Virus record (IMG/VR): IMGVR_UViG_3300005854_000025
Coordinates: 1 to 31,751 of that record
Reading direction: 5' to 3' (one strand)
DNA from: a virus
DNA length: 31,751 nucleotides
Positions 4,000 through 29,017 of the stretch are shown here, one piece after another. A model generated the notes under the pieces. The model did not search any database, was not told the origin of the DNA, and was given only the letters and a program-made list of their open reading frames with translations. A program made the translations under genes and the position numbers. Positions within the stretch are counted from its first letter, which is position 1; each line of letters starts with the position of its first letter.

Positions 4000-4305
4000 T
4001 CAAATTCTCTTTACCTCTACCTCAAACCCATCTTGCTCCAACCTCCTACACATCAAAACACAATCCCACCAATCCTCCCTCCTCACCACCAACTCCTCCA
4101 AAAACCTCCCCTCCCTATCATACAACCTCATCCTACCATACTCACACCAAACAGGAGGAACTACCTCAACCTTAGCCACACCATTCTCTACCAAATACCA
4201 ATACAACCTCTCATAACTCTCAACAAACCCCCTAAACCACTTAACAAACAAAACCCCTAAAACCACCACTACCAGAACAATAATCAACACCACATACCAA
4301 ACCAT
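4000..4305 (-). CDS. Single-pass membrane protein, paralogue A
   Basis: A 101-residue protein: a transmembrane helix at about 3-22 (YVVLIIVLVVVVLGVLFV), then a basic segment and a soluble domain. The domain contains VENGVAKVEVVPPVW, RLYDREGRFLEELVVR and DGFEVEVKRI. The same blocks occur in the gene at 6331-6636 (VEKGAKKVVLVVPKW, RLYDSDGVFIEELVVR, AGFEVEVERV), so the two are paralogues flanking the tnpB insertion. By topology the domain is probably cytoplasmic. Function unknown. Its ribosome site GAGGGGTAGTAGGGG overlaps the end of the upstream gene fragment. Confidence 0.75.
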   Translation of the reverse strand: MVWYVVLIIVLVVVVLGVLFVKWFRGFVESYERLYWYLVENGVAKVEVVPPVWCEYGRMRLYDREGRFLEELVVRREDWWDCVLMCRRLEQDGFEVEVKRI

Positions 4306-4547: not shown

Positions 4548-6003
4548 ACTCAGGGTTACTTTTGTAAATCAAATTGTAAAGTTTAAACTTCACAGGATTA
4601 CATAACTTCACAAACAAAGTCTTCATATCAAAACACAGTCTACGGAGCTTTGCTCCGACCTTCAATATGTTCATTGCACCTACTAAATCCGCATTAAACA
4701 CCTTATTTAACTTCAAATCCTTATACAAACCTCTACTTACCCTCCTCCCTGAAAATTCTACTTCTTCTCCATTTACCTTCTTACCTTGAACCTCCACTAC
4801 ATCATTACTAATCGGAGACGCTTTACTTGTATACCTTTCATCAACTTCCACTACTTCAATCCCTAACTCCTTACACTTATACTTTAGCATATTTACTAAC
4901 TTCCTATGCGGTATACAAACATAATTCTGATTTACAACTCTACTGAAAGGTATCCCATTCTTATCTACTGCATCCCTCCCTACATAAACTACCTTATGCC
5001 CTGTTTCATAGAGTAAATCTACTACCCTCCTCGTTATCTGGTGCATCCAAGTGCTTAGCTTCCTGTCTCTTGCTTTACATAAGTTCCATAAATACTTCCT
5101 CAACCATAACCAATGCTTCTCTAAAATCTTCCTCTTCTCCTCATCCTTCTCCTCTTTCACCATATTCTCCACCTGATCTATATGACTCTGAACTTCTGCT
5201 CTCTTCTTATTCCACCACCGATTATAACTCTTCAATTCCTTCCCTGAGACTATAAAACTTTTTAACTCAGGATTATCACTTACCACAGATAACAAATTAT
5301 CTAACCCTATATCAATCCCAGCTTGATATTCTCCTGCCTTGTCTATACTAACCTCCTTTTCATATACTACATGCACCTCCACCCATCCCATATCATATAC
5401 CAACCTCACTTCCTTCACCTTATAACTAAAACCCTCAGGCAACAATACTTTCACCTTTTCCGCCTTACATTCCTTACTACCTGTTCTCAATATCAAAACC
5501 AACCTTCTCCCATCTACCTCAAAAGAAACCGGAACACTAAACCTTGTCAAATTCTTCAACTTCCTTGGCTTCGATAATCCAGGTCTGCCTCTAAACTTTC
5601 CAGGACTTTTCTTATACTCTTTCAATGCTTTTGCCCATAACTTCAAATTCCTTACTTCTTGCCTTATTATCTGAACACATGCTCCTGCATTCCTTACCCT
5701 CTTCTTCTGCTCCTTCAACTTTTCAACTAAACCCCTCAATACCTCATCCTCTTCAATTAATCCTTTCACTTCCTCTAACTCCTTCCTCTGCCACTCTGAC
5801 TTATTACTCTGTATCCTATCAGCCAACAACGAATACAATAAACTCGGATTAAAAAGCCTAAAAATATCATTTACCCTCTTATCCCATTCCAAAATAAATA
5901 CTCTCAACAAATTCTGAAACTGAGCTAAATCATAAACAAATCGCTTTACTTTACCTCCGTACTTTGAGCTTAACCTAATACACAAAACTCTCTTTACTAT
6001 CAT
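4477..6003 (-). CDS. tnpB: TnpB RNA-guided nuclease (RuvC-like)
   Basis: A 508-residue TnpB/OrfB protein. After an N-terminal helical region come RuvC-I GIDIGLDNLLSV (229-240, Asp231), RuvC-II EVDERYTSK (386-394, Glu389) and RuvC-III FNADLVGAMNIL (436-447, Asp439). The block GRRVSRGLY (419-427) before RuvC-III is typical. The usual C-x2-C zinc pair between RuvC-II and III is absent, as in some TnpB subgroups, but all three catalytic acids are present. TnpB is an omegaRNA-guided DNA nuclease that helps retain its element. A phage-type GAGGAGG site 10 bases before ATG 6001-6003 suggests it is translated within the phage operon. The C-terminal ~55 residues are encoded by the hairpin region. Confidence 0.93.
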   Translation of the reverse strand: MIVKRVLCIRLSSKYGGKVKRFVYDLAQFQNLLRVFILEWDKRVNDIFRLFNPSLLYSLLADRIQSNKSEWQRKELEEVKGLIEEDEVLRGLVEKLKEQKKRVRNAGACVQIIRQEVRNLKLWAKALKEYKKSPGKFRGRPGLSKPRKLKNLTRFSVPVSFEVDGRRLVLILRTGSKECKAEKVKVLLPEGFSYKVKEVRLVYDMGWVEVHVVYEKEVSIDKAGEYQAGIDIGLDNLLSVVSDNPELKSFIVSGKELKSYNRWWNKKRAEVQSHIDQVENMVKEEKDEEKRKILEKHWLWLRKYLWNLCKARDRKLSTWMHQITRRVVDLLYETGHKVVYVGRDAVDKNGIPFSRVVNQNYVCIPHRKLVNMLKYKCKELGIEVVEVDERYTSKASPISNDVVEVQGKKVNGEEVEFSGRRVSRGLYKDLKLNKVFNADLVGAMNILKVGAKLRRLCFDMKTLFVKLCNPVKFKLYNLIYKSNPESLFIKTGIGASKPAVRQEALAPV

Positions 6004-6330: not shown

Positions 6331-6636
6331 TCATACCCTCTCTACCTCAACCTCAAACCCTGCCCTCCTCAACACCAAAACTATTGCTCCTACAAACCAC
6401 TGAACCCCACCTCTCACTACTAACTCCTCTATAAACACCCCATCGCTATCATATAATCTCACCAACACACATCCAACCCATTTAGGCACTACCAAAACTA
6501 CCTTTTTAGCTCCCTTCTCTACCAAATAATCTACCAAACCAACACACTGCACCTTAACACTCACCTCTTTCACTAAAGTCACTAAAACCCAAAAAATAAC
6601 TAACCCCACTATCACATACACCACATACTCAAACAT
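6331..6636 (-). CDS. Single-pass membrane protein, paralogue B
   Basis: A 101-residue protein starting at ATG 6634-6636 (TGATG overlap with the upstream stop; GGAGG 8 bases away). A transmembrane helix at about 5-24 (VVYVIVGLVIFWVLVTLV) is followed by a soluble domain sharing RLYD, EELVVR and GFEVEVERV blocks with the gene at 4000-4305. The two share length, topology and motif order, so they arose by duplication; tnpB and two small genes now lie between them. The function is unknown and the domain is probably cytoplasmic. Confidence 0.75.
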   Translation of the reverse strand: MFEYVVYVIVGLVIFWVLVTLVKEVSVKVQCVGLVDYLVEKGAKKVVLVVPKWVGCVLVRLYDSDGVFIEELVVRGGVQWFVGAIVLVLRRAGFEVEVERV

Positions 6637-6893
6637 CACCCATCCCTCCTCACAACCTCATCTATCGACATATAACAAAACTCAAATGCTAACCCCGGAA
6701 AATCCCTAACAACATCCTCCTCCACTCTCATTAACTTATTCCTCAACACCTCATCTTCCTTATCACCATACACAACAACATATACACGCACCTTTTCATT
6801 GCTCGCTTCAAATGATACCATCCCAACCCTCTCCACCTCATAAAATCTATCAATAACCTCAGAAATCACACATAACCTGCCTACACCACCCAT
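6636..6893 (-). CDS. Hypothetical protein
   Basis: An 85-residue protein. ATG 6891-6893 was chosen because AGGTAGGGG lies just upstream, whereas the frame extending to 6920 would overlap the preceding small gene. The sequence alternates strands and helices: RVYVVVYGDKEDEVLRNKL, then VEEDVVRDFPGLAFEF. No motif is recognised. The first codons overlap no gene and its stop overlaps the ATG of the membrane protein, indicating co-translation. Confidence 0.65.
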   Translation of the reverse strand: MGGVGRLCVISEVIDRFYEVERVGMVSFEASNEKVRVYVVVYGDKEDEVLRNKLMRVEEDVVRDFPGLAFEFCYMSIDEVVRRDG

Positions 6894-8379: not shown

Positions 8380-9323
8380 CTCAACCACTTCTCTGGAAAC
8401 TTTATCAACGCATTCCCTTGCACCACATTAAACCGCAAACACTGAAGAGGATCAACCTCCACCCTATCACCACTCTCCACCAAAGAAAACCACAACCTCA
8501 ACTTACAAATCTCAACCGCCCTCCCATCTATATCTACCCCATACAAAGAATTCTCTATAGCATGCCTCCTCACCTCATACTCAGATACACCACCCACCAA
8601 CCTCCTCAACCTAACTATCTCATCCAACATCCCAACCAAAAAAGCACCAGTCCCACACGCCGGATCACATACCTTCACCTCAGCTAATAACCTATCCACC
8701 TCACCTTCATACCCCCTCACACCAGATACATCACCACCCCTCACAAACTTATCTATCCCATTCTCACTTACCTTGCCCTCCAACTTCGCCACAAGATAAT
8801 AAAATAAACTCTCCCTACACATATACTCCACAATCATCTTCGGCGTATAATAAACACCCATCTTCTTCTTTTTCTCCTTACTCAACCACCCCAAAAACCT
8901 TTCATACACCCCACCCAAAACCTCATGCCCTAAACCTCTAAAATCATAAAACCTCAAACCCTTCCAACCCCTACTCCCACTATGCTTATACTCAAACACC
9001 TTTCTCAACGCATCAACTAATCCACTACACCCCAAAAACCTCTCCACATCCACCCTCAAAAACCCTACATCTATATACTTCCCTAAAACACCATACATAC
9101 CACCTAAAAAACCATCCAACGACTTCTCACAAAATACCTCAGAAATATACTCCCTCGACAACAACCGAAAATCCTCAAACATCCTCAATAACATCAACAT
9201 AAACAAAAGCTTAAAAACCCCTACCCTCCTCTCCTCCACATCTCCCACCTCACCCACCACACCATCTAAATAATCCAAATAACCCACCACATCTCTATAA
9301 AAAGCCTTTACCATATCATCCAT
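8376..9323 (-). CDS. N6-adenine DNA methyltransferase, N-terminal half (SAM binding)
   Basis: A 315-residue protein. A helical N-terminus leads to HEVLGGVYERFLGW and MGVYYTPKMIVEYM (motif X, about 155-168), then VCDPACGTGAFLVGM (SAM-binding motif I, 218-232), LYGVDID (motif II, 260-266) and VVQGNAL (300-306). It stops at KFPEKWLR, just where family members continue toward NPPY, which is encoded by the next gene. No PD-(D/E)xK nuclease is seen in the N-terminal 140 residues, so I call a methyltransferase, not a type IIG restriction enzyme. It would modify phage DNA against host restriction. Composition is typical of the resident genome. ATG 9321-9323 lies 3 bases after the sbcC tail relic. Confidence 0.85.
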   Translation of the reverse strand: MDDMVKAFYRDVVGYLDYLDGVVGEVGDVEERRVGVFKLLFMLMLLRMFEDFRLLSREYISEVFCEKSLDGFLGGMYGVLGKYIDVGFLRVDVERFLGCSGLVDALRKVFEYKHSGSRGWKGLRFYDFRGLGHEVLGGVYERFLGWLSKEKKKKMGVYYTPKMIVEYMCRESLFYYLVAKLEGKVSENGIDKFVRGGDVSGVRGYEGEVDRLLAEVKVCDPACGTGAFLVGMLDEIVRLRRLVGGVSEYEVRRHAIENSLYGVDIDGRAVEICKLRLWFSLVESGDRVEVDPLQCLRFNVVQGNALIKFPEKWLR

Positions 9324-9326
9324 ACC

Positions 9327-9407
9327 TCAACCCTCCACCCTCAACTCACTTACCCCATCCCTCTTCTCTACTACCCATACCTCATCCCAATCCACCATCC
9401 TTTTTAA
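9327..9407 (-). pseudogene. Relic of a second sbcC 3' end
   Basis: An open stretch of 26 codons ending at TGA 9327-9329 encodes LKRMVDWDEVWVVEKRDGVS and a short tail. The last 18 residues align without gaps to the SbcC C-terminus (EVWMVEKKEGVSKLIVGG against EVWVVEKRDGVSELRVEG, 12 of 18 identical). The stretch is G-rich like resident genes. It contains the GGAGGG used by the methyltransferase, whose ATG follows after GGT. An ATG exists at 9396-9398 but without a proper ribosome site. I read this as the displaced native sbcC end, cut off by the endonuclease gene. Confidence 0.8.
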
Positions 9408-9443
9408 TTACTCACTTCTTATCTCTCTATCAACATATATCTC

Positions 9444-10479
9444 CTATTTCTCATAAAAACACTCTACTATCTTACTTATTACTTTTGCAGGATTCTTCAT
9501 TATTTCATCTTCCCAAATCTCTAATACCTCATAACCATATTTCCTATAAACCTCTTTCTTTTCTTTATCCCGTTCCTTTACTTTAGGAAAACTATGCCAA
9601 TAATTCCCATTCATTTCAATTATCCAATCTTCCTCCTTATGTATAAAATCAGGGACAAACCCCGCAATAAATACTTTTCCATCACCTACATATCTCCATT
9701 CTTCTGGGAAATAACTCTGCAACAAATCACAAAAAACCTTCTCTAAACGAGAAGGTTTTTTGTGAAAAACTTCTACTCTGGCTCTCACATTTTTCTCTCT
9801 ATATTTCAAATCCTGCCACTTTATTTTAATTACATAAGATTGCCTTACCCTACGTTCCAAACTTGCCCATGCTCCTTTTATTTTTTGAGAATGTTTTCTT
9901 CTATACTCTTCACTTTTCACATATATTCTATAACACTCCCAACTACAACATTTTTTCTTTTCTTCACTTTTCCTTACTTCAAACTCTTTACCACAAACTA
10001 CACAAACTTTTCTTATTCTTCTCCCTTGTAAAAATTTCTGCCAACATTTCTCACTACAAAACTTTTTATTACCCCCGCTTGGAATAACCAAAAACTCTTT
10101 ACCACAATATATGCATACATTCCTTAATCTCTTTCTCTTTTTAAATTCATCACTACACTGTCTACTACAAAATTTTCCTTTATTCTTTTCAATTAAACAC
10201 CTATAAACTTTAAACTCCTTACCACATACTATGCAAACCCTCGTTAACTTTTTTGCTCTATATAACTCAAAACATTTTTTTTTTACTACAAAACTTTCTA
10301 CTACTCTTACTTGGATCTACCCAAAACTCTCTATTACATATAATACAAATCTTCCTTATCCTTCTTATTCTATGTAAACCTTCGCATTTCTTACTACAAA
10401 ACTTCGCTTTATTCGCTTCACATCTATATACCTCAAATTCTTTACCACAGTTCAAACAAACTTTCTTTACTCTTCCTAT
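9444..10479 (-). pseudogene. Homing endonuclease 1, zinc-finger array plus EDxHD nuclease, frame broken at an A10 run
   Basis: Two frames join into one homing endonuclease. Frame one (10479 to 10267) encodes fingers CLNCGKEF/FCSKKC and CIICNREF/FCSKK, then hits TGA after ten A residues (10275-10284). One base fewer continues into frame two with CIVCGKEF/FCSRQC, CIYCGKEF/FCSEKC, CVVCGKEF/CCSWEC, then the nuclease: SRLEKVF, GDGK, VPDF, NYWH, ERDK, YEVLEIWEDE. These supply the E, D, H and D of the Vsr-like EDxHD family (I-Bth0305I type). There is no ATG or GTG at the 5' end; TTG 10453-10455 would cut the first finger. Frame two can start at TTG 10091. It is either inactivated or read through by slippage at the A run. 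It lies directly after sbcC. Confidence 0.8.
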
Positions 10480-10481
10480 CT

Positions 10482-12146
10482 TTATCCTCCCACTATCAAT
10501 TTACTCACCCCTTCTTTTTTCTCTACCATCCATACTTCACTACATAAATCAATAATCCCTCTCTTCACATCCTCATGATGCGTCACTACTACCACTGTCC
10601 TATCATCCCCCCTCAACCACTGAAGCAACTCCACCACCCTTCCACTATTCACCCTATCAAACGGCGCAAACACCTCATCAAGCACAAGCAAATTCGTCCC
10701 CTTCCCCTGATACATAAGAAAATCCGATAACCCTAACATCACAACCAACATTATCAAATACCTCTCACTACCACTCCACCAATTAAGCTTGCTCATACTC
10801 TTATACCCATCACTCACCTCAACCTCCAGCTGACCTCTGCTACCAATCCTAAACCTCACATCCATACCTAACACCTCACCATACCTCCTCATAAGCTCAT
10901 TAAACACAACCAACACCCTATCCAATACATATGCCACCACCCCATCATCACTTAACCCCCTCTCCCACTTCCTCGCTGTCTCAAACTCCCACTCCAACTC
11001 CTCTACCACCGAAAAATCTACACCACCCAACCTCTCTACCTGCCTCCTATACTCATCCGCCCTCGCCTTAACCTCCAACGCCCTCCTATACTCTGCTACA
11101 TCCCCTACCCTCCTCCTCATATCCCATACCTCTTTCAATAACCTCTCCCTATCAATCCCCTTACCCCTCACATACACAACCTCAAGCTCCCTCAACTGTC
11201 CTTCCACTTCCTTCAATAACTGAGATAACCTCTCTAACTCCTCCTTCGCCTCCCTCACAAACCTCTCAGTATCTACTTCAGAACCACATACCCAACCCCT
11301 CCCATCCCTCACATACCTCATCTTCTCCTTCACATTCGCCACCTTACCCGATAACTCATCCCTCACACTCCTCAACTGCCTTATCAAACCCTCTACCTTC
11401 AACGCATCACGCCACCTCTGCACCTGCTCCAACACATACCTCCTCCTCTTCCTATACTCCTCAACCGATATCGGCAAATCATTACCCCACCTCTCCAATA
11501 CTCCTAACGCCCACCTCAACTCCTCTTCCTTCACCTCCATCTCCTTCAACCTTCCCATCAACTCCCTCATATCCTTCCGCACCCTTAACTCAACTTCTAC
11601 CTCTTTCCTCCTCTCCTTTACCCTCTCCCTCAACCTCTGAAACACATCCAACCCTAACCACCTAATAAATAACTCCTTCCTTTCCGCATCACTCTTCACA
11701 AGAAAACTATCCATCATTCCCTGCTGAAACCAACTCGTCAACACAAACTCCTCATAACTCATCCCAACAAGCTCAGCTACCCTCTTCCTCATCACATCCC
11801 AATTGTACGCCTCCACCTTACCATTAACCCTTGCTACCCACCTCCTTTCCGAACCCCTCACATACTCCACCTCAACCTGACCCACCCCTTCCCTCTCAAA
11901 TAACACCAACCCACTACCCTTCTTCCTCAACCTATTCACTACATCATCCTTCACCTGACCACGGCTGTTCTCCTCCCATAACACTGTAGCCAACGCATCC
12001 CACAACGCCGACTTCCCAACCATATTGCTACTACCATCCCTGTCCCAATTCCGACCTTCAAGCAACACAAGACCAGGCTTGAACTGAACATCCGCTTGAC
12101 CATAACTGAAGAGGTCCCTAACCTTCAATGCCAAGAAACGCACCAT
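10482..12146 (-). CDS. sbcC: SbcC/Rad50/gp46-like exonuclease ATPase
   Basis: A 554-residue SMC-type ATPase, the partner of the SbcD-like nuclease at 13524-14471 in end-processing and recombination. It has Walker A SSNMVGKSAL (39-48), a Q-loop region near WFQQGMMDSF (139-148), two coiled-coil arms (about 165-285 and 290-400), ABC signature WWSGSERYL (456-464), Walker B LLVLDEVF (486-493) and H-loop VVTHHED (520-526). At the hook apex only GWVCGSEVD is present (Cys287), so the CxxC zinc hook is missing. ATG 12144-12146 follows GGGGGTGGGAG. The last ~25 codons are more AT-rich than the rest and appear to have arrived with the endonuclease gene downstream. Confidence 0.9.
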   Translation of the reverse strand: MVRFLALKVRDLFSYGQADVQFKPGLVLLEGRNWDRDGSSNMVGKSALWDALATVLWEENSRGQVKDDVVNRLRKKGSGLVLFEREGVGQVEVEYVRGSERRWVARVNGKVEAYNWDVMRKRVAELVGMSYEEFVLTSWFQQGMMDSFLVKSDAERKELFIRWLGLDVFQRLRERVKERRKEVEVELRVRKDMRELMGRLKEMEVKEEELRWALGVLERWGNDLPISVEEYRKRRRYVLEQVQRWRDALKVEGLIRQLRSVRDELSGKVANVKEKMRYVRDGRGWVCGSEVDTERFVREAKEELERLSQLLKEVEGQLRELEVVYVRGKGIDRERLLKEVWDMRRRVGDVAEYRRALEVKARADEYRRQVERLGGVDFSVVEELEWEFETARKWERGLSDDGVVAYVLDRVLVVFNELMRRYGEVLGMDVRFRIGSRGQLEVEVSDGYKSMSKLNWWSGSERYLIMLVVMLGLSDFLMYQGKGTNLLVLDEVFAPFDRVNSGRVVELLQWLRGDDRTVVVVTHHEDVKRGIIDLCSEVWMVEKKEGVSKLIVGG

Positions 12147-18599: not shown

Positions 18600-18926
18600 T
18601 CACCTCCCCTTCAATATCAATCCTATAAACTTATCTATCCTCATAACCACAATAGGCTTCTGCCTACCCACACCTAATACCAATACATCTACTCCCTTCC
18701 CTACCGCCTCCTCAACCCACCTAAACAACTCCTTATAACTACCTGTTCGTCTCTTACACTCTATAAACAACTCAAACCCCTCATCAATTTTAACGATCAC
18801 ATCGCCTCTCATTGCAGGAGCTACCCCCGAAACAGGAACCCTATTCGCCTCAAACCCAGCTCGCCTAAACCAATCCCTAACCCTATACTCAAACCCCTTC
18901 CCAACCTTAATCGACCTCTTACCCAT
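18600..18926 (-). CDS. Hjc-like Holliday junction resolvase
   Basis: A 108-residue PD-(D/E)xK protein. The layout fits archaeal-type Hjc: GKGFEYRVRDWFRRAGFEA with Glu13, RVPVSG (29-34), MRGDVIV (39-45, Asp42), and FIECKRRTG (54-62, Glu56, Lys58). A helix and the strand DVLVLGVG complete the fold. It would resolve recombination junctions or branched replication intermediates. ATG 18924-18926 lies 3 bases after the polA tail relic, whose end supplies its ribosome site (AAGGAATGG). Originally it must have followed polA directly. A related replication-linked nuclease is the alternative. Confidence 0.8.
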   Translation of the reverse strand: MGKRSIKVGKGFEYRVRDWFRRAGFEANRVPVSGVAPAMRGDVIVKIDEGFELFIECKRRTGSYKELFRWVEEAVGKGVDVLVLGVGRQKPIVVMRIDKFIGLILKGR

Positions 18927-18929
18927 ACC

Positions 18930-19001
18930 TTACCATTCCTTGCAATCTCCCCACGACCTCCCAACCGCTACATCAATGTCAAACTCCAAAAACTTTTCCA
19001 T
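18930..19001 (-). pseudogene. Relic of a second polA 3' end
   Basis: Twenty-three codons ending at TAA 18930-18932 encode EKFLEFDIDVAVGRSWGD and then CKEW. The polymerase gene itself ends EKFVEFDIDIEVGKSWGE and CKEI: 16 of 22 residues match without gaps. The relic is G-rich like resident genes, whereas the tail now on polA is more AT-rich. It overlaps the last codons of the endonuclease gene in another frame, which marks the insertion point. The stop is separated from the resolvase ATG by GGT, exactly as in the sbcC relic. Confidence 0.88.
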
Positions 19002-19983
19002 AAAAGTAACTTAACACTTTTTCTACAACAGCCTTAGGATCAGAATACACCTCAGTTTCCCAAATCTCCAACACTTTATAACCATTTTCAATATATACCT
19101 TTGTTTTTATCTTATCTCGTTTCCTATTCTCAGGTAAACTATGCCAATAGTCTCCATGCACTTCAATTATCCATCTTTTCTCTCTATGAACAAAATCAGG
19201 AATAAACCCTTCTACAATCATCTTTCCATCACCCACATAAATCCACTCCCCAGGAAAAGAATTTTGCAACAAATCGTCTACCACCTTTTCCAGCCGGGTA
19301 GGTCTAACCTCTCGTACTTCTACTACTTTCTTAATAAACTCAGCTCTAAATTCAGGATCTTGCCATACACGAGTCGCCTTTTGCCTAAACTCCTGATCCT
19401 GCCACAAAGCAGAAGTAATCTTAGAACGCATAGCCTTGCCTTTTTCACTATTTAGATACCTTCTCCAACATTCCCGACTACAAAACTTACCATAGCCTTT
19501 CCTTACTAACCATTCGTCTGCTTCAAATTCTCTACCACAACCACGGCAAATTAATTTCACTTTCCTTCTTCTAGCTAAACCAGCACACTTCCTACTACAA
19601 AACTTACGAGATCCTGCCAAAGATGCTATTACTTCAAATTCCTTACCACAATAGGAACACTTCATCTTAACAGATTTCTTGTTCTTTTGAGCAACAATTT
19701 GTACAATCTCATACACTCGTTTTCTGCCTTCTTCACTATTTATATACTTTAAGTAGCATTCCCAGCTACAAAACTTTCTATTATGTTTATAATTCAGCTC
19801 ACTTTTTCTCACCTCAAACTCCTTACCACAACCAAAGCAAATCAACTTTACCCGTACTCTTCTATATAAACCTTCACATCTTTTACTACAAAATTTACGA
19901 AAATTCGCCTCTGATAACCTTACCTCAAATTCTTTACCGCAATAAAAACAACCTAGTTTCACTCTACTAGTTTTACTAGCCAT
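18979..19983 (-). CDS. Homing endonuclease 2, four zinc fingers plus EDxHD nuclease
   Basis: A 334-residue protein. Four C-x2-C...FCS-x2-C fingers are seen: Cys12/15/32/36, 49/52/72/76, 109/112/129/133 and 146/149/168/172, most with CGKEFEV after the first pair. Then come two short repeats (WQDQEFR, WQDPEFR at 194-212) resembling NUMOD-type DNA-contact helices. The Vsr-like nuclease domain holds TRLEKVV (Glu232), GDGK, FIPDF (Asp263), WIIE, DYWH (His281), KRDK (Asp290) and KVLEIWETE. This matches the EDxHD homing endonuclease family. It starts 11 bases after the polA stop and ends inside the polA tail relic. It is paralogous to the damaged gene at 9444-10479. Confidence 0.92.
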   Translation of the reverse strand: MASKTSRVKLGCFYCGKEFEVRLSEANFRKFCSKRCEGLYRRVRVKLICFGCGKEFEVRKSELNYKHNRKFCSWECYLKYINSEEGRKRVYEIVQIVAQKNKKSVKMKCSYCGKEFEVIASLAGSRKFCSRKCAGLARRRKVKLICRGCGREFEADEWLVRKGYGKFCSRECWRRYLNSEKGKAMRSKITSALWQDQEFRQKATRVWQDPEFRAEFIKKVVEVREVRPTRLEKVVDDLLQNSFPGEWIYVGDGKMIVEGFIPDFVHREKRWIIEVHGDYWHSLPENRKRDKIKTKVYIENGYKVLEIWETEVYSDPKAVVEKVLSYFYGKVFGV

Positions 19984-19994
19984 CTACCTTACAA

Positions 19995-22346
19995 CTAGAT
20001 CTCTTTGCATTCTCCCCAAGATTTACCAACTTCAATATCTATATCAAACTCTACAAACTTCTCATCTGGTAACTCAATATTTCTCACCTCTTTTTTTATT
20101 ATACGACAAACCTCTTCCACTTCCTCTCCAGGACAATCTACAATCACAGAGTCATGGACAAAATTCACTACCTTACCTCGAAAACCTTCCCTATACAACC
20201 TTTCCACTATTCTCCAAGCTGTTAGCGCAGCAATATCACTCGCCGCACTCTGTACAGGTGTATTCACTGCCTTCTGCTTCCAACCTTCCATATCTCCAAC
20301 AGGATCTATCCACCTAAATCTACCAAACATTGACCTAACATAACCAACCTCCCTAACAAATTCTCTTACTCTATCAAGCCAAACTTTTAATCCAGAAAAC
20401 ATCTGAAAATATTTTTCAAGCATCTTCTTAGCATCCTCTATAGGTATCGATAAATCTTTTGATATAGTTACATGACTCATCCCATAAATTACTCCGAAGT
20501 TATACACTTTTGCCCTCCTCCTATACTCCTTCCTTACCTCCTCTGGCGCATCCTGAGGCATTCCATACAGCTCAATCGCCACCTTCGTATGAATGTCTAC
20601 ACCAGACTCAAAAAACTCTTTCATTTTTTTATCTTTTGAATACTGACACGCAACCCTCAACTCATGCTGACTAAAATCCGCCTTCACAATCTTGCCATCC
20701 TCACCAAACCTGCTCACAAAAGCCTTCTCCAAAACAGGACCTAACCTCGTTGGAATATTCATCAAATTTGGCTCAGATGATGCAAGTCTCCCTGTATCCG
20801 TCCCAACTACAGAAAACTTCGAATGAATACAACCATCAGCCCTTATCCACTCTTCTAAAAATGGTTCCACATAGGTCCCAAGCAGCTTCTCTATTACCCT
20901 GTACTCAAGCAACCTCTCTATCCTCACCCTTGCCTCATCAGATAACCTATCCCCTTGAACCTTCAAAACTCCCTCTAAAACCTCCTTCCTCGTCGACTCA
21001 ATCTCAATACCAACCTCCCTTAACCACTCCAACACTTGCTTCGGCGAATTTAAATTGACCCTACCAACACCACGTAAAAACTTCCTCTTCCTTTCCTCTA
21101 ACTCCTTCCTCAACCCAACTAAATACTCCACATCCACATACATCCCATTCACCTGCAACTCAATACTCAAATTTAATATCCCCTTCACTACCTCATACGC
21201 ATCCCACAAACTTCTACTCACCCTCCCAAATATCTCACTCCACCGAAGAGGTACCTTCTTAAGCTTCTCCTTAAACAACTTATACAACTCCAACGTCACA
21301 TGCGCATCCATCGCATTATACTCATACAACCTCTCCCTCTCTAACCTCCTAATATCAACTTTTTTCCAGTCTATTCCATATTGCCCCACATCCAAAAAAT
21401 CTAACGCCAACCGCTTCAACGACACACCCGGAACCGCCTTCCCACTAAGCAAATAATACATCACCTGAACATCCTCTATATCACTACTCCTCCCATGCAA
21501 CTCCCAACCATACTCCTTCACACCCAGTACTACATCAAACCCAGCATTATACACAATTAACTTTCTCGCCCGCTTATACACCTCCTTCATAAATTCCCTT
21601 GCTCTATCTTCACCCAACCTCTCCAAATCCACAACATAACACCTACCATCAACCGCTAACCCAACCGTCAACACCTTAAACTCTCCATGCCACACATCAC
21701 TCCCAACCGTCTCAAAATCAAGCGCAACTTCCTTGCCCCCCACCACCGATAACACTTCATCTAACCTCACACCATCAACCACATCATACCTAATCCTCCT
21801 ATACAACTTCCCAGTCTCAACAAATACACACCCCCGAACTAAATCCTTTACAAATTGCTCATACGGACTCACATCAAGAACTATATCCTTATTAAACATC
21901 TGACGATACGCCGGATGCCAAGTTACTAACACTTTTCCATACTTCGTATCAACAATATTACCCCTCACATCAGATAACGCCCCAGGGACCTCAAAAAACT
22001 CTTTCGCTGTGGACCCTAACGCCACTATCAACCGTCGCCCCTTCAAACGCATTAACTCCTGCTCCAACTTCACCCTACAACACTTCACAATCTCCTTTGA
22101 CAGTTGATTATTCGGAGGATAACACTTGACTACATTCGTGATATAAACCTTAGACCAATCTACACCTATCGCCTCTAACACCGTCTTCAAAATCTTGCCT
22201 GAATAACCAACGAAGGGACGCCCCTGGCGCTCTTCCTCCTCACCAGGAGCCTCCCCAACAAGCACTAACTCTGCTCCCAAATCTCCCTCAGGATCAACCC
22301 TCCTCTTCCCACGCAAAGGACAAGATAAACATACCACATCACTCAT
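19995..22346 (-). CDS. polA: UDG / 3'-5' exonuclease / PolA-type DNA polymerase fusion
   Basis: A 783-residue replicative polymerase. Residues 1-170 are a family-4-type uracil-DNA glycosylase: CLSC (Cys6, 9), GEAPGEEEERQGRPFVG (31-47), NVVKCYPPNN (71-80), VKCC (Cys89/90), VTWHPAY (141-147); the four Cys fit a 4Fe-4S cluster. The exonuclease has LDFET (209-213), YNAGFD (266-271) and NAMDAHVT (344-351). The polymerase has TDTGRLASSEPNLMNIPTR, motif A KADFSQHELR (555-564), motif B RRAKVYNFGVIYGMS (610-624) and motif C FVHDS (729-733). A glycosylase-polymerase fusion also occurs, to my knowledge, in SPO1-like phages. The last codons seem exchanged with the homing endonuclease. Confidence 0.95.
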   Translation of the reverse strand: MSDVVCLSCPLRGKRRVDPEGDLGAELVLVGEAPGEEEERQGRPFVGYSGKILKTVLEAIGVDWSKVYITNVVKCYPPNNQLSKEIVKCCRVKLEQELMRLKGRRLIVALGSTAKEFFEVPGALSDVRGNIVDTKYGKVLVTWHPAYRQMFNKDIVLDVSPYEQFVKDLVRGCVFVETGKLYRRIRYDVVDGVRLDEVLSVVGGKEVALDFETVGSDVWHGEFKVLTVGLAVDGRCYVVDLERLGEDRAREFMKEVYKRARKLIVYNAGFDVVLGVKEYGWELHGRSSDIEDVQVMYYLLSGKAVPGVSLKRLALDFLDVGQYGIDWKKVDIRRLERERLYEYNAMDAHVTLELYKLFKEKLKKVPLRWSEIFGRVSRSLWDAYEVVKGILNLSIELQVNGMYVDVEYLVGLRKELEERKRKFLRGVGRVNLNSPKQVLEWLREVGIEIESTRKEVLEGVLKVQGDRLSDEARVRIERLLEYRVIEKLLGTYVEPFLEEWIRADGCIHSKFSVVGTDTGRLASSEPNLMNIPTRLGPVLEKAFVSRFGEDGKIVKADFSQHELRVACQYSKDKKMKEFFESGVDIHTKVAIELYGMPQDAPEEVRKEYRRRAKVYNFGVIYGMSHVTISKDLSIPIEDAKKMLEKYFQMFSGLKVWLDRVREFVREVGYVRSMFGRFRWIDPVGDMEGWKQKAVNTPVQSAASDIAALTAWRIVERLYREGFRGKVVNFVHDSVIVDCPGEEVEEVCRIIKKEVRNIELPDEKFVEFDIDIEVGKSWGECKEI

Positions 22347-23234: not shown

Positions 23235-23804
23235 TTAGTTTTTATTTTGTTTATCAAGATCACTCTTCTTGCTTTCATTATCTAACACACCAAAAACCTT
23301 CTTATCTACTGCCTCTACCACACAACCCATATACCAATGGGTCATCAATTCTAGAACTTCACCTATATACATCACATGAACACTACACTTATCAGGTAAC
23401 CTCACACGATCCACCCACTCTAACATATGCCTCACCACAACCTCATCCACATCTGCTACATAAAACGAATACCTCCTCAAAAAATCCTCGCTCAAACAAA
23501 TACAAAAAGGCAAACAAGCCGCCACACCTAACCTCCCTACCCACAACAACGGAACATCATCTGAAAACTTTGCCAAACATACCCCTAACGTCAACACCAA
23601 TACCTTATACAACCCTAAATCATTCCTTTCACCAGATACCAACAACCAGAAATCAGGAATATTACTAGACAAAAATCGCAACTGATAAGGCTTAACCTCT
23701 ACCCAACGGTCTCCATCAACAGGAACTAACTTAAACCGCTTCATATCCTCCTTAAACAACCTATATGCAACTAAATAATCTTCAACATCAGGTATCTTCA
23801 CCAT
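23235..23804 (-). CDS. Hypothetical protein, tandem paralogue B
   Basis: A 189-residue protein from ATG 23802-23804 after AAGGGGGTTGG. It is clearly related to the next gene upstream: YRLFKEDMKRFKLVPV, QLRFLSSNIPDFWLLV, GLYKVLVLTLGVCLA and LPFCICLSEDF line up with YELFKEEIRNFELIPV, QLRLLSCNIPNYWLLV, GLYRVLVLTEDLCLA and LPFWIYLTSDF. The C-terminus is charged (SKKSDLDKQNKN). The function is unknown; position between primase and SSB suggests a replication or DNA-protection role. Confidence 0.7.
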   Translation of the reverse strand: MVKIPDVEDYLVAYRLFKEDMKRFKLVPVDGDRWVEVKPYQLRFLSSNIPDFWLLVSGERNDLGLYKVLVLTLGVCLAKFSDDVPLLWVGRLGVAACLPFCICLSEDFLRRYSFYVADVDEVVVRHMLEWVDRVRLPDKCSVHVMYIGEVLELMTHWYMGCVVEAVDKKVFGVLDNESKKSDLDKQNKN

Positions 23805-23825
23805 ACTACCAACCCCCTTCATTTA

Positions 23826-24365
23826 TTAATTTTCATTCCCACTCAACTCACAAGCATCCACCACTTCTAAAATACTGCATGCATTCCACCAACTCGTCAG
23901 CTCCATCATATCCACAATATACCTACCCCTCACATCATTCACCACAGGTAGCTCAACTTTCTTGACCCACTCAAGTAAATACCGAATTACTTCCTCCTCC
24001 ACCATCGCCACAAACACAGAATTCTCCTCAATGAAATCACTAGTTAAATAAATCCAGAACGGTAGACATGCCGCATAAAGACGCTTGCCAACACGTAAAT
24101 ATGGCACATCTTCCCTAAAATCCGCTAAACATAAATCCTCCGTCAACACCAACACTCTATACAAACCAAACCCAGAAACCTCACACTCTACCCCATCAAC
24201 CAACAACCAATAATTTGGAATATTACAAGACAATAACCTCAACTGACGAGGTTCTACTTTGACCCTCTGAGACTTTTCAACAGGAATTAACTCAAAATTC
24301 CTTATCTCTTCCTTAAACAACTCATACACAGCTTCCAAATTAATACCTTCAACCAACCCCTTCAT
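23826..24365 (-). CDS. Hypothetical protein, tandem paralogue A
   Basis: A 179-residue protein from ATG 24363-24365 after GGGAGGTGGGTGG. It shares motif order and length with the following gene, so the pair arose by tandem duplication and diverged. Conserved pieces are an N-terminal helix, the NIPNYWLLV strand, a GLYRVLVLT block, LPFWIYLTSDF, and YLLEWVKKVELP. There is no catalytic signature. It is the first gene after the third promoter module, so the pair and SSB-polymerase downstream may be driven from there. Confidence 0.7.
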   Translation of the reverse strand: MKGLVEGINLEAVYELFKEEIRNFELIPVEKSQRVKVEPRQLRLLSCNIPNYWLLVDGVECEVSGFGLYRVLVLTEDLCLADFREDVPYLRVGKRLYAACLPFWIYLTSDFIEENSVFVAMVEEEVIRYLLEWVKKVELPVVNDVRGRYIVDMMELTSWWNACSILEVVDACELSGNEN

Positions 24366-24390
24366 ACCACCCACCTCCCATTTTTTACTC

Positions 24391-27794: not shown

Positions 27795-28598
27795 CTACTC
27801 AAGCAAATTCTCCGGACATCCCTCTGCCTTCCACCTCTTCACTATATTCTCAACCGAATACTCCAACCTCAACTCATTCCTTTTCAATAAATCAGCATTC
27901 TTCAACTTCTCCCAATACTCCCTCGCTACATCAGCAAGCCATCCCCTCTTTGACACATAAAACACTATACCAACAGACAAAATGGTCCTCCAATACTTAG
28001 CCACCAACTCCTCCAAATCCCTCTTACTCTCTTCAAACCTCTTGCTAACTACACCCTGCCGTCTATCCTCATCCATCTTCACTTTTATCCGCCTCTTCAC
28101 CAAATCCTCATCCGCCATTCTCTTAAATACAAGAGGCTCCCTTATCTCCTCCCAACACTCATGCTGATACTTTATCACCTCATACACACTCATCCCTAAC
28201 TCCCTCGCCACACGCTGAACAACCTTCGCCGCTTTTATCACCTCCTTATCCATTAAATCCACATAAACATCCTTCCCAAACCGCTCCCTCACATACCTCT
28301 TATACTCCTCCACAACCTCCCTCACACCATTCTCTACTTTTGTATCTATTACATATTTAGTCACATACCGCCACCCATCACCAAGCTTCTTCCCCTCCAC
28401 CCACAACCACTTCAAAAACCCATACAACCACTCAACCTTCTCCCTAAGCCCCTTCCCCTGCCACCCCTTCACCTCCACCTCCACACACTTCACAAGCTTA
28501 CACGCCCCCCTATAATCCAATACATCAACCCCAGATATATCCTGCCATACCGCAAGAACTAGATAAACATCAGCATGTAAATACCTAAAATCCTTCAC
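27795..28598 (-). CDS. Hypothetical replication-module protein
   Basis: A 267-residue helical protein, starting at GTG 28596-28598 (GGAGG 10 bases upstream; overlaps the preceding stop as GTGA). The N-terminal part has HADVYLVLAVWQDISG and KVEWLYGFLKWLWVEGKK; the middle has AAKVVQRVARELGMSVYEV and a basic helix LVKRRIKVKMDEDRRQG. I recognise no family. Its place before a loader lacking an N-terminal domain makes a primosome adaptor (DnaD-like or gp59-like) a reasonable guess, but I see no defining motif. Confidence 0.65.
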   Translation of the reverse strand: MKDFRYLHADVYLVLAVWQDISGVDVLDYRGACKLVKCVEVEVKGWQGKGLREKVEWLYGFLKWLWVEGKKLGDGWRYVTKYVIDTKVENGVREVVEEYKRYVRERFGKDVYVDLMDKEVIKAAKVVQRVARELGMSVYEVIKYQHECWEEIREPLVFKRMADEDLVKRRIKVKMDEDRRQGVVSKRFEESKRDLEELVAKYWRTILSVGIVFYVSKRGWLADVAREYWEKLKNADLLKRNELRLEYSVENIVKRWKAEGCPENLLE

Positions 28599-29017
28599 TG
28601 AACCATCACCTCCCTCTCCTCTATTTTCTTGCTTATCTCATCTACACACTCATCTAACATCTTCTCTAAACACACACTAAAAGCCTTAAAATCTTTCTCA
28701 TCATACAACCTCTCAAGTCCCCTTTCAGCAGCATCCACAACCTCAGACAAATACCTCAAACCTAACCCTTTCGCTACAAGAAAAAACAACACATCCCTCC
28801 TATCACCTTCCCCACTATTCAACCGACGCATCACATCAATCACCTCAACCAAAAAAGCTAACCGAATCAAATACGCTAACACACCTTCAAACTCCATTAA
28901 TACTGCATCACTCCAACCCTTAAAACAAGCCCTATCCACAAACTCCTCGCCCGAATCACACCTCAAACCCCTCAATATGCTAAACACCCTCTCAAAATCT
29001 ATCTGAATATCAGCCAT
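28595..29017 (-). CDS. Hypothetical helical protein
   Basis: A 140-residue acidic helical protein with ATG 29015-29017 after GGAGGTGGTGTGAGGT. It has long amphipathic helices (VLAYLIRLAFLVEVIDVMRR, YLSEVVDAAERGLERLYDE) and four dispersed Cys. No family is recognised. It is translated together with the next gene through an overlapping stop/start. A 65-base gap separates it from the UvsW-like gene, and this gap shows neither promoter nor terminator. Confidence 0.65.
   Translation of the reverse strand: MADIQIDFERVFSILRGLRCDSGEEFVDRACFKGWSDAVLMEFEGVLAYLIRLAFLVEVIDVMRRLNSGEGDRRDVLFFLVAKGLGLRYLSEVVDAAERGLERLYDEKDFKAFSVCLEKMLDECVDEISKKIEEREVMVQ

Follow-up and report, generated by a model that had tools for sequence, protein, structure and literature searches.

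A homing endonuclease gene between two diverged polA 3′ ends in a virus genome, a phage version of an arrangement known from fungal mitochondria

In a metagenomic virus record from IMG/VR (IMGVR_UViG_3300005854_000025; 31,751 nt, analysed over its whole length and referred to here as the window), the DNA polymerase gene polA is followed by a gene for a homing endonuclease, and beyond the endonuclease gene lies a second, diverged copy of the polA 3′ end. The arrangement is real and unusual, and it is a phage version of one found in mitochondria. A homing endonuclease has to leave the gene that it invades unbroken, which introns and inteins achieve by splicing. A swapped-in 3′ end that keeps the invaded gene whole is known in fungal mitochondria and seemingly unreported in phages. 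The best explanation, which is probably correct judging from the sequences compared below, is homing with co-conversion, in which the endonuclease gene would arrive with the 3′ end of a donor gene and leave the recipient's own tail stranded. A second locus in the window has the same layout, and the presence in one genome of a fresh case and an apparently decayed one suggests a recurring route. Such a route would leave a searchable footprint of hybrid gene, endonuclease, and stranded tail, and it would mean that homing is able to replace parts of a replicative polymerase. The features of both loci are listed in Table 1.

Table 1. Features at the polA locus and the SbcC-like locus of the window
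Feature	Position	Strand	Basis
polA: uracil-DNA glycosylase domain, 3′-5′ exonuclease, family A polymerase; 783 aa, hybrid gene	19995..22346	minus	ORF, Pfam, mosaic
Imported-looking polA 3′ part; left edge uncertain, ~20546 (codon 600) to 20366 (codon 660)	19995..20546	minus	Similarity switch from L006 to L007/L009, GC3 drop
polA near tail, EKFVEFDIDIEVGKSWGECKEI, at the C-terminal end	19998..20063	minus	60/63 nt identical to L007
HE1, free-standing EDxHD homing endonuclease (by fold; activity predicted) with putative zinc-finger repeats, 334 aa	18979..19983	minus	ORF, Pfam, fold
Far tail, MEKFLEFDIDVAVGRSWGDCKEW-stop, candidate displaced native polA end	18930..19001	minus	tblastn, shuffles; placed like the single tail of L006
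Holliday junction resolvase-like gene, native neighbour	18600..18926	minus	Pfam, PHROGs; 83% nt to L006, 77% to L007
SbcC/gp46-like gene; near tail EVWMVEKKEGVSKLIVGG at 10485-10538	10482..12146	minus	phrog_77, E=3e-47
HE2, HE1-related endonuclease, frameshifted, no standard start	9444..10482	minus	DNA search with HE1
SbcC-like gene far tail, MVDWDEVWVVEKRDGVSELRVEG-stop; next gene ATG at 9323	9327..9401	minus	Tail match, shuffles

Every feature of the polA locus is on the minus strand. The polA open reading frame is complete and uninterrupted, with a stop codon that ends at 19995, and 11 bases (19984-19994) separate this stop from the ATG of the endonuclease gene, HE1, at 19983. The stop codon of HE1 (18979-18981) falls inside the far tail, in another reading frame. 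The far tail is open from its own ATG through to its stop, after which come GGT and the resolvase ATG at 18926, just as a preliminary description of this DNA had it. That description also spoke of two diverged polA tails flanking the endonuclease, the near one being AT-richer, and both observations are confirmed. Between EKF and CKE the tails are identical at 16 of 21 amino acids and 47 of 63 nt, with a GC content of 0.35 in the near tail and 0.45 in the far tail. The pair has an alignment score of 100, which was reached in none of 5000 shuffles (maximum 45), and the best of 597 other windows of the same length scored 45. A tblastn search of the window with the last 45 amino acids of polA also matched the far tail (E=5e-10). 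At its other end the polymerase carries an N-terminal uracil-DNA glycosylase domain (Pfam; residues 20-157, ~21875-22290, minus strand).

The HE1 protein consists of repeated Cys-x2-Cys zinc-finger-like units, likely for DNA binding, followed by a C-terminal nuclease domain, and its Pfam match is DUF559. The structure model (mean pLDDT 84) has its best Foldseek match in the catalytic domain of I-Bth0305I (3r3p, E=1.6e-4), an EDxHD homing endonuclease encoded in a group I intron of a phage recA gene. In VIA-align the two superpose over 93 residues with a Z score of 12.1, an rmsd of 2.4, and 28% identity, and Vsr endonuclease ties with I-Bth0305I in this comparison. Residues E232, D263, H281, and D290, which we take to be those of the EDxHD motif, are positioned as expected in the alignment, and a phmmer search with HE1 agrees with the assignment. 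HE1 is thus well supported as an EDxHD homing endonuclease by its modelled fold, with predicted activity, and the match to I-Bth0305I in both fold and sequence bears out the earlier reading of the gene after polA. An alignment search of viral contigs with HE1 found one close family member (L093, 39%). The L093 endonuclease follows a PAAR-like gene and has no duplicated tail, which counts against the best explanation, and the layout is therefore no fixed property of the HE1 family. No relative was found in the genome contigs searched. Another zinc-finger, EDxHD-like homing endonuclease is present in L013 (4404-5678), on the opposite strand amid pieces of a minor capsid gene with intein-like fragments.

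Unlike I-Bth0305I, with which it has the nuclease fold in common, HE1 is free-standing and has zinc-finger repeats, and no intron was found around it. An Rfam search of 18800-20700 with a threshold as loose as E<=1 gave no intron or riboswitch match, and there was no match over the whole window at gathering scores. A group I intron or an intein at the polA locus was rejected on the lack of an Rfam intron match and on the uninterrupted polA frame, which stops before HE1 begins at its own ATG. HE1 accordingly stands outside any intron or intein, as free-standing homing endonucleases do, and the earlier suggestion that polA is kept whole without splicing agrees with the complete reading frame and the Rfam result.

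Four relatives of polA are present in IMG/VR (L006, L007, L008, and L009), one of which, L008, is cut before the polA end. In L006, which has no endonuclease, the polA stop is followed by 3 bases and the resolvase ATG. In L007, also without an endonuclease, a folE-like gene (5291-5859) lies between polA and the resolvase gene, and in L009, again without an endonuclease, polA runs into the start of a folE-like gene, where the contig stops. Neither L006 nor the window has a folE-like gene at this position. An allele without the endonuclease therefore exists at the same site in L006, as in intronless homing. A relative of this kind had been expected to run polA into the resolvase gene with its tail at the place of the far tail, and L006 does; the far tail is thus native by position. 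None of the relatives compared that lack the endonuclease was seen to carry both tails, and no case was seen in which the near tail is ancestral and the far tail an unrelated gene, the outcomes named beforehand as contrary to a displaced native end. The flanks on both sides of the locus are L006-like, with 86% identity in the upstream gene, 83% in the resolvase gene, and 87% in the next gene.

The polA gene itself is a mosaic. In codons 1-600 it shares 87.7% identity with L006 and 74.7% with L007, whereas codons 600-792 are 75.4% identical to L006, 79.4% to L007, and 80.8% to L009, with a similarity to L007 of 0.85-0.90 over codons 675-792. The similarity between L006 and L007 stays level across both parts (0.742 and 0.759), so the polA of the window, rather than that of L006, has changed. 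Class sites start to shift near codon 600, and a breakpoint near codon 660 gave a maximum chi-square of 75.5 that was reached in none of 2000 permutations. GC3 falls from ~0.5 to 0.27-0.35 over the 3′ stretch, and the identity of the near tail to L007 exceeds that of all 171 windows of the same length in codons 1-600 (maximum 56). The mosaic and the L007-like 3′ end together point to the import of ~0.35-0.55 kb of the polA 3′ end, and the endonuclease probably came along with it. The earlier claim of an imported near tail consequently stands in its main part, but the idea that a short tail alone was carried does not, since the foreign stretch spans ~120-180 codons. This stretch adjoins HE1, as it would after co-conversion, and we infer a single cause; an import of such length looks like homing with co-conversion and not like a self-contained insert. 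Near the polymerase O-helix (codons ~620-650, ~20400-20490, minus strand) two very different alleles occur, GMSHxxISxDLS in the window and L009 and GRGxxSVxEELG in L006 and L007.

The far tail had been read as the displaced native end, and here too the result is divided. The position of the L006 tail favors that reading, but the sequence does not place the far tail, which is identical to L006 and to L007 at 50 of 63 nt each; being equidistant, it owes its native status to position. Three sites are common only to the far tail, L006, and L009, and three only to the far tail, the near tail, and L007. The near tail is slightly closer to L006 (53/63) than the far tail is, which counts against the best explanation. 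Identity as low as that between the far tail and L006 occurs in 5% of native windows and is compatible with a native tail that has been released from constraint. Other phages had been expected to carry the near tail together with HE1, and this was not borne out. Neither the IMG/VR scans nor the annotated phages searched yielded such a donor, which also weighs against the best explanation, and a near-type tail is present in L007, where the endonuclease is absent.

A second copy of the layout is located at 9330-10541 of the window, where a related endonuclease, HE2, directly follows an SbcC/gp46-like gene that ends in EVWMVEKKEGVSKLIVGG-stop. Beyond HE2 come the far tail, whose match to the near one spans 9330-9383, and its stop, GGT, and the ATG of the next gene, a methylase gene, and the spacing from stop through GGT to ATG is identical at the two loci. 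The near and far tails of the SbcC-like gene agree at 12 of 18 amino acids, a score reached in none of 5000 shuffles, and again the base composition differs, with an AT-rich near tail (GC 0.38) and a G-rich far tail (GC 0.52). The reading frame of HE2 changes at a run of ten A residues (10275-10284, minus strand), and with this frameshift and no standard start HE2 is probably decayed. The run itself could stem from slippage or an assembly error, or be a sign of decay. For this locus a search for relatives of the SbcC-like and SbcD-like genes found none; a motif match in L171 proved to be an unrelated gene. The second locus, with its same order of parts and related endonuclease, is support for homing with co-conversion.

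Under that explanation, the free-standing HE1 would cut a polA lacking the endonuclease near its 3′ end, and the break would be repaired from a donor of an L007-like polA lineage, copying the 3′ part of polA and HE1 together. The recipient would then be rejoined inside its own old polA tail. Such one-sided repair might be expected if the gene downstream in the donor differed, as it does among the relatives. The right junction of HE1 is at GAAAAGTT, a sequence similar to the polA tail and also to the 3′ end of the L093 endonuclease, TATGGAGAAAGTT, and a short-homology join is possible there. The old tail would persist, stranded, and what remains of it would preserve the 3′-end sequence, including a ribosome-binding-like AAGGA before the resolvase gene; in L006 the last polA codons (AAGGAG) occupy the place of this AAGGA. 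The replacement 3′ end would leave the polymerase whole without any splicing, and it is hypothesized to recode the cleavage site as well. The same process may have taken place earlier at the SbcC-like gene, with the endonuclease there decaying since. More tentatively, phages could harbor a class of non-splicing mobile elements, comparable to introns and inteins, in which a homing endonuclease is coupled to a substitute 3′ end for the invaded gene. Such elements would be directed at the 3′ ends of genes for replication and recombination, and the substitute end would also remove the cleavage site; this generalization is doubtful at present.

A rather unlikely alternative is that the mobile unit is shorter, consisting of a recoded gene 3′ end and a homing endonuclease that insert at a matching site, with the longer foreign polA stretch derived from a separate recombination. 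The SbcC-like gene speaks for such a unit, as only about its last 15 codons are AT-rich and look foreign, which counts against co-conversion of a longer stretch, and so does the near-type tail of L007, which differs from the tails of L006 and L009 and occurs there without an endonuclease. The fungal mitochondrial precedent also takes this form (PMC3630166). Against it, the foreign polA stretch of 120-180 codons adjoins HE1, so that one co-conversion event suffices and no second recombination is needed.

Far less probable is that the polA tail was duplicated in tandem at its own site and that the endonuclease then inserted between the copies, both of which diverged. Two tails do flank HE1, and the comparison with the end of the L093 endonuclease suggests a right junction at a short shared sequence, but the copies differ in base composition, the near tail is nearly that of L007, and the polA sequence upstream of it is likewise of another lineage. 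A functional far tail is just as improbable, whether as an alternative polA end or as a small reading frame whose translation brings the ribosome to the resolvase start. Its frame is open from ATG to stop and the distance to the next ATG is the same at both loci, yet no intron was found at the locus and polA is complete without the far tail. A role of the far tail in translation of the next gene alone would not conflict with homing and co-conversion. The least credible account is an assembly artefact joining two co-occurring viruses in one metagenome contig. The record is metagenomic and its polA a mosaic, but both flanks are of one lineage, the right junction appears to share only ~8 bases, too few for a usual assembly join, and the same accident would have to happen twice, given the second locus.

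The closest known systems are hybrid genes of fungal mitochondria. In Glomus sp. DAOM 229456, atp6, atp9, cox2, and nad3 each combine a C-terminal part of foreign origin with a mobile endonuclease ORF and the displaced native C-terminal part, and the first such hybrid described was atp6 of Allomyces macrogynus (PMC3630166). The polA locus has the same layout, a host gene with an in-frame foreign C-terminal part (here L007-like), an endonuclease ORF, and a displaced end in the native position matching relatives, and in both systems the hybrid gene is whole without splicing. The fungal endonucleases are mitochondrial LAGLIDADG or GIY-YIG enzymes, whereas HE1 belongs to the EDxHD enzymes and comes from a virus record; the window thus appears to work like the fungal hybrids, yet it is not classed among them. 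It further differs in its measurable co-conversion-like stretch and in holding two cases in one genome.

Among phages, co-conversion of flanking sequence is established for free-standing homing endonucleases such as the Seg and Mob enzymes of T4 (PMC2988022). These resemble HE1 in their intergenic position beside a replication gene and in the replacement of recipient flanks by co-conversion, but under the same tail test a downstream tail copy was present at none of nine free-standing T4 endonucleases and at both of those in the window. Other homing endonuclease insertions split genes, as with mobE in nrdA of Aeh1 and mobA in gene 60 of T4 (PMC2988022). They too lie in or near a replication gene; there the protein is split into two chains, whereas the polA of the window stays whole through its replacement 3′ end. 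A screen of 83 other homing endonuclease loci for tail duplication gave no convincing case, and the part of the literature covered held no phage example of a swapped gene 3′ end. Candidates in that screen were discarded because neighbouring genes lay on the opposite strand (L162), because the match was weak and distant (L124), or because the sequence matched only itself (L094).

Other observations concern a T4 gene and small genes of the window. In T4 (NC_000866, 42906-43538; L173), mobC begins with MNYDRIYS, and at the DNA level this is a diverged duplicate of the beginning of nrdG (MNYDRIYP), the gene that follows; this is possibly a mirror image of the polA layout, with a gene 5′ end duplicated at a homing endonuclease. 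The window also contains paralogous pairs of small genes with no assigned function, in tandem at 23235-24374, at 4000-4305 and 6331-6639, and at 2-442 and 28595-29017.
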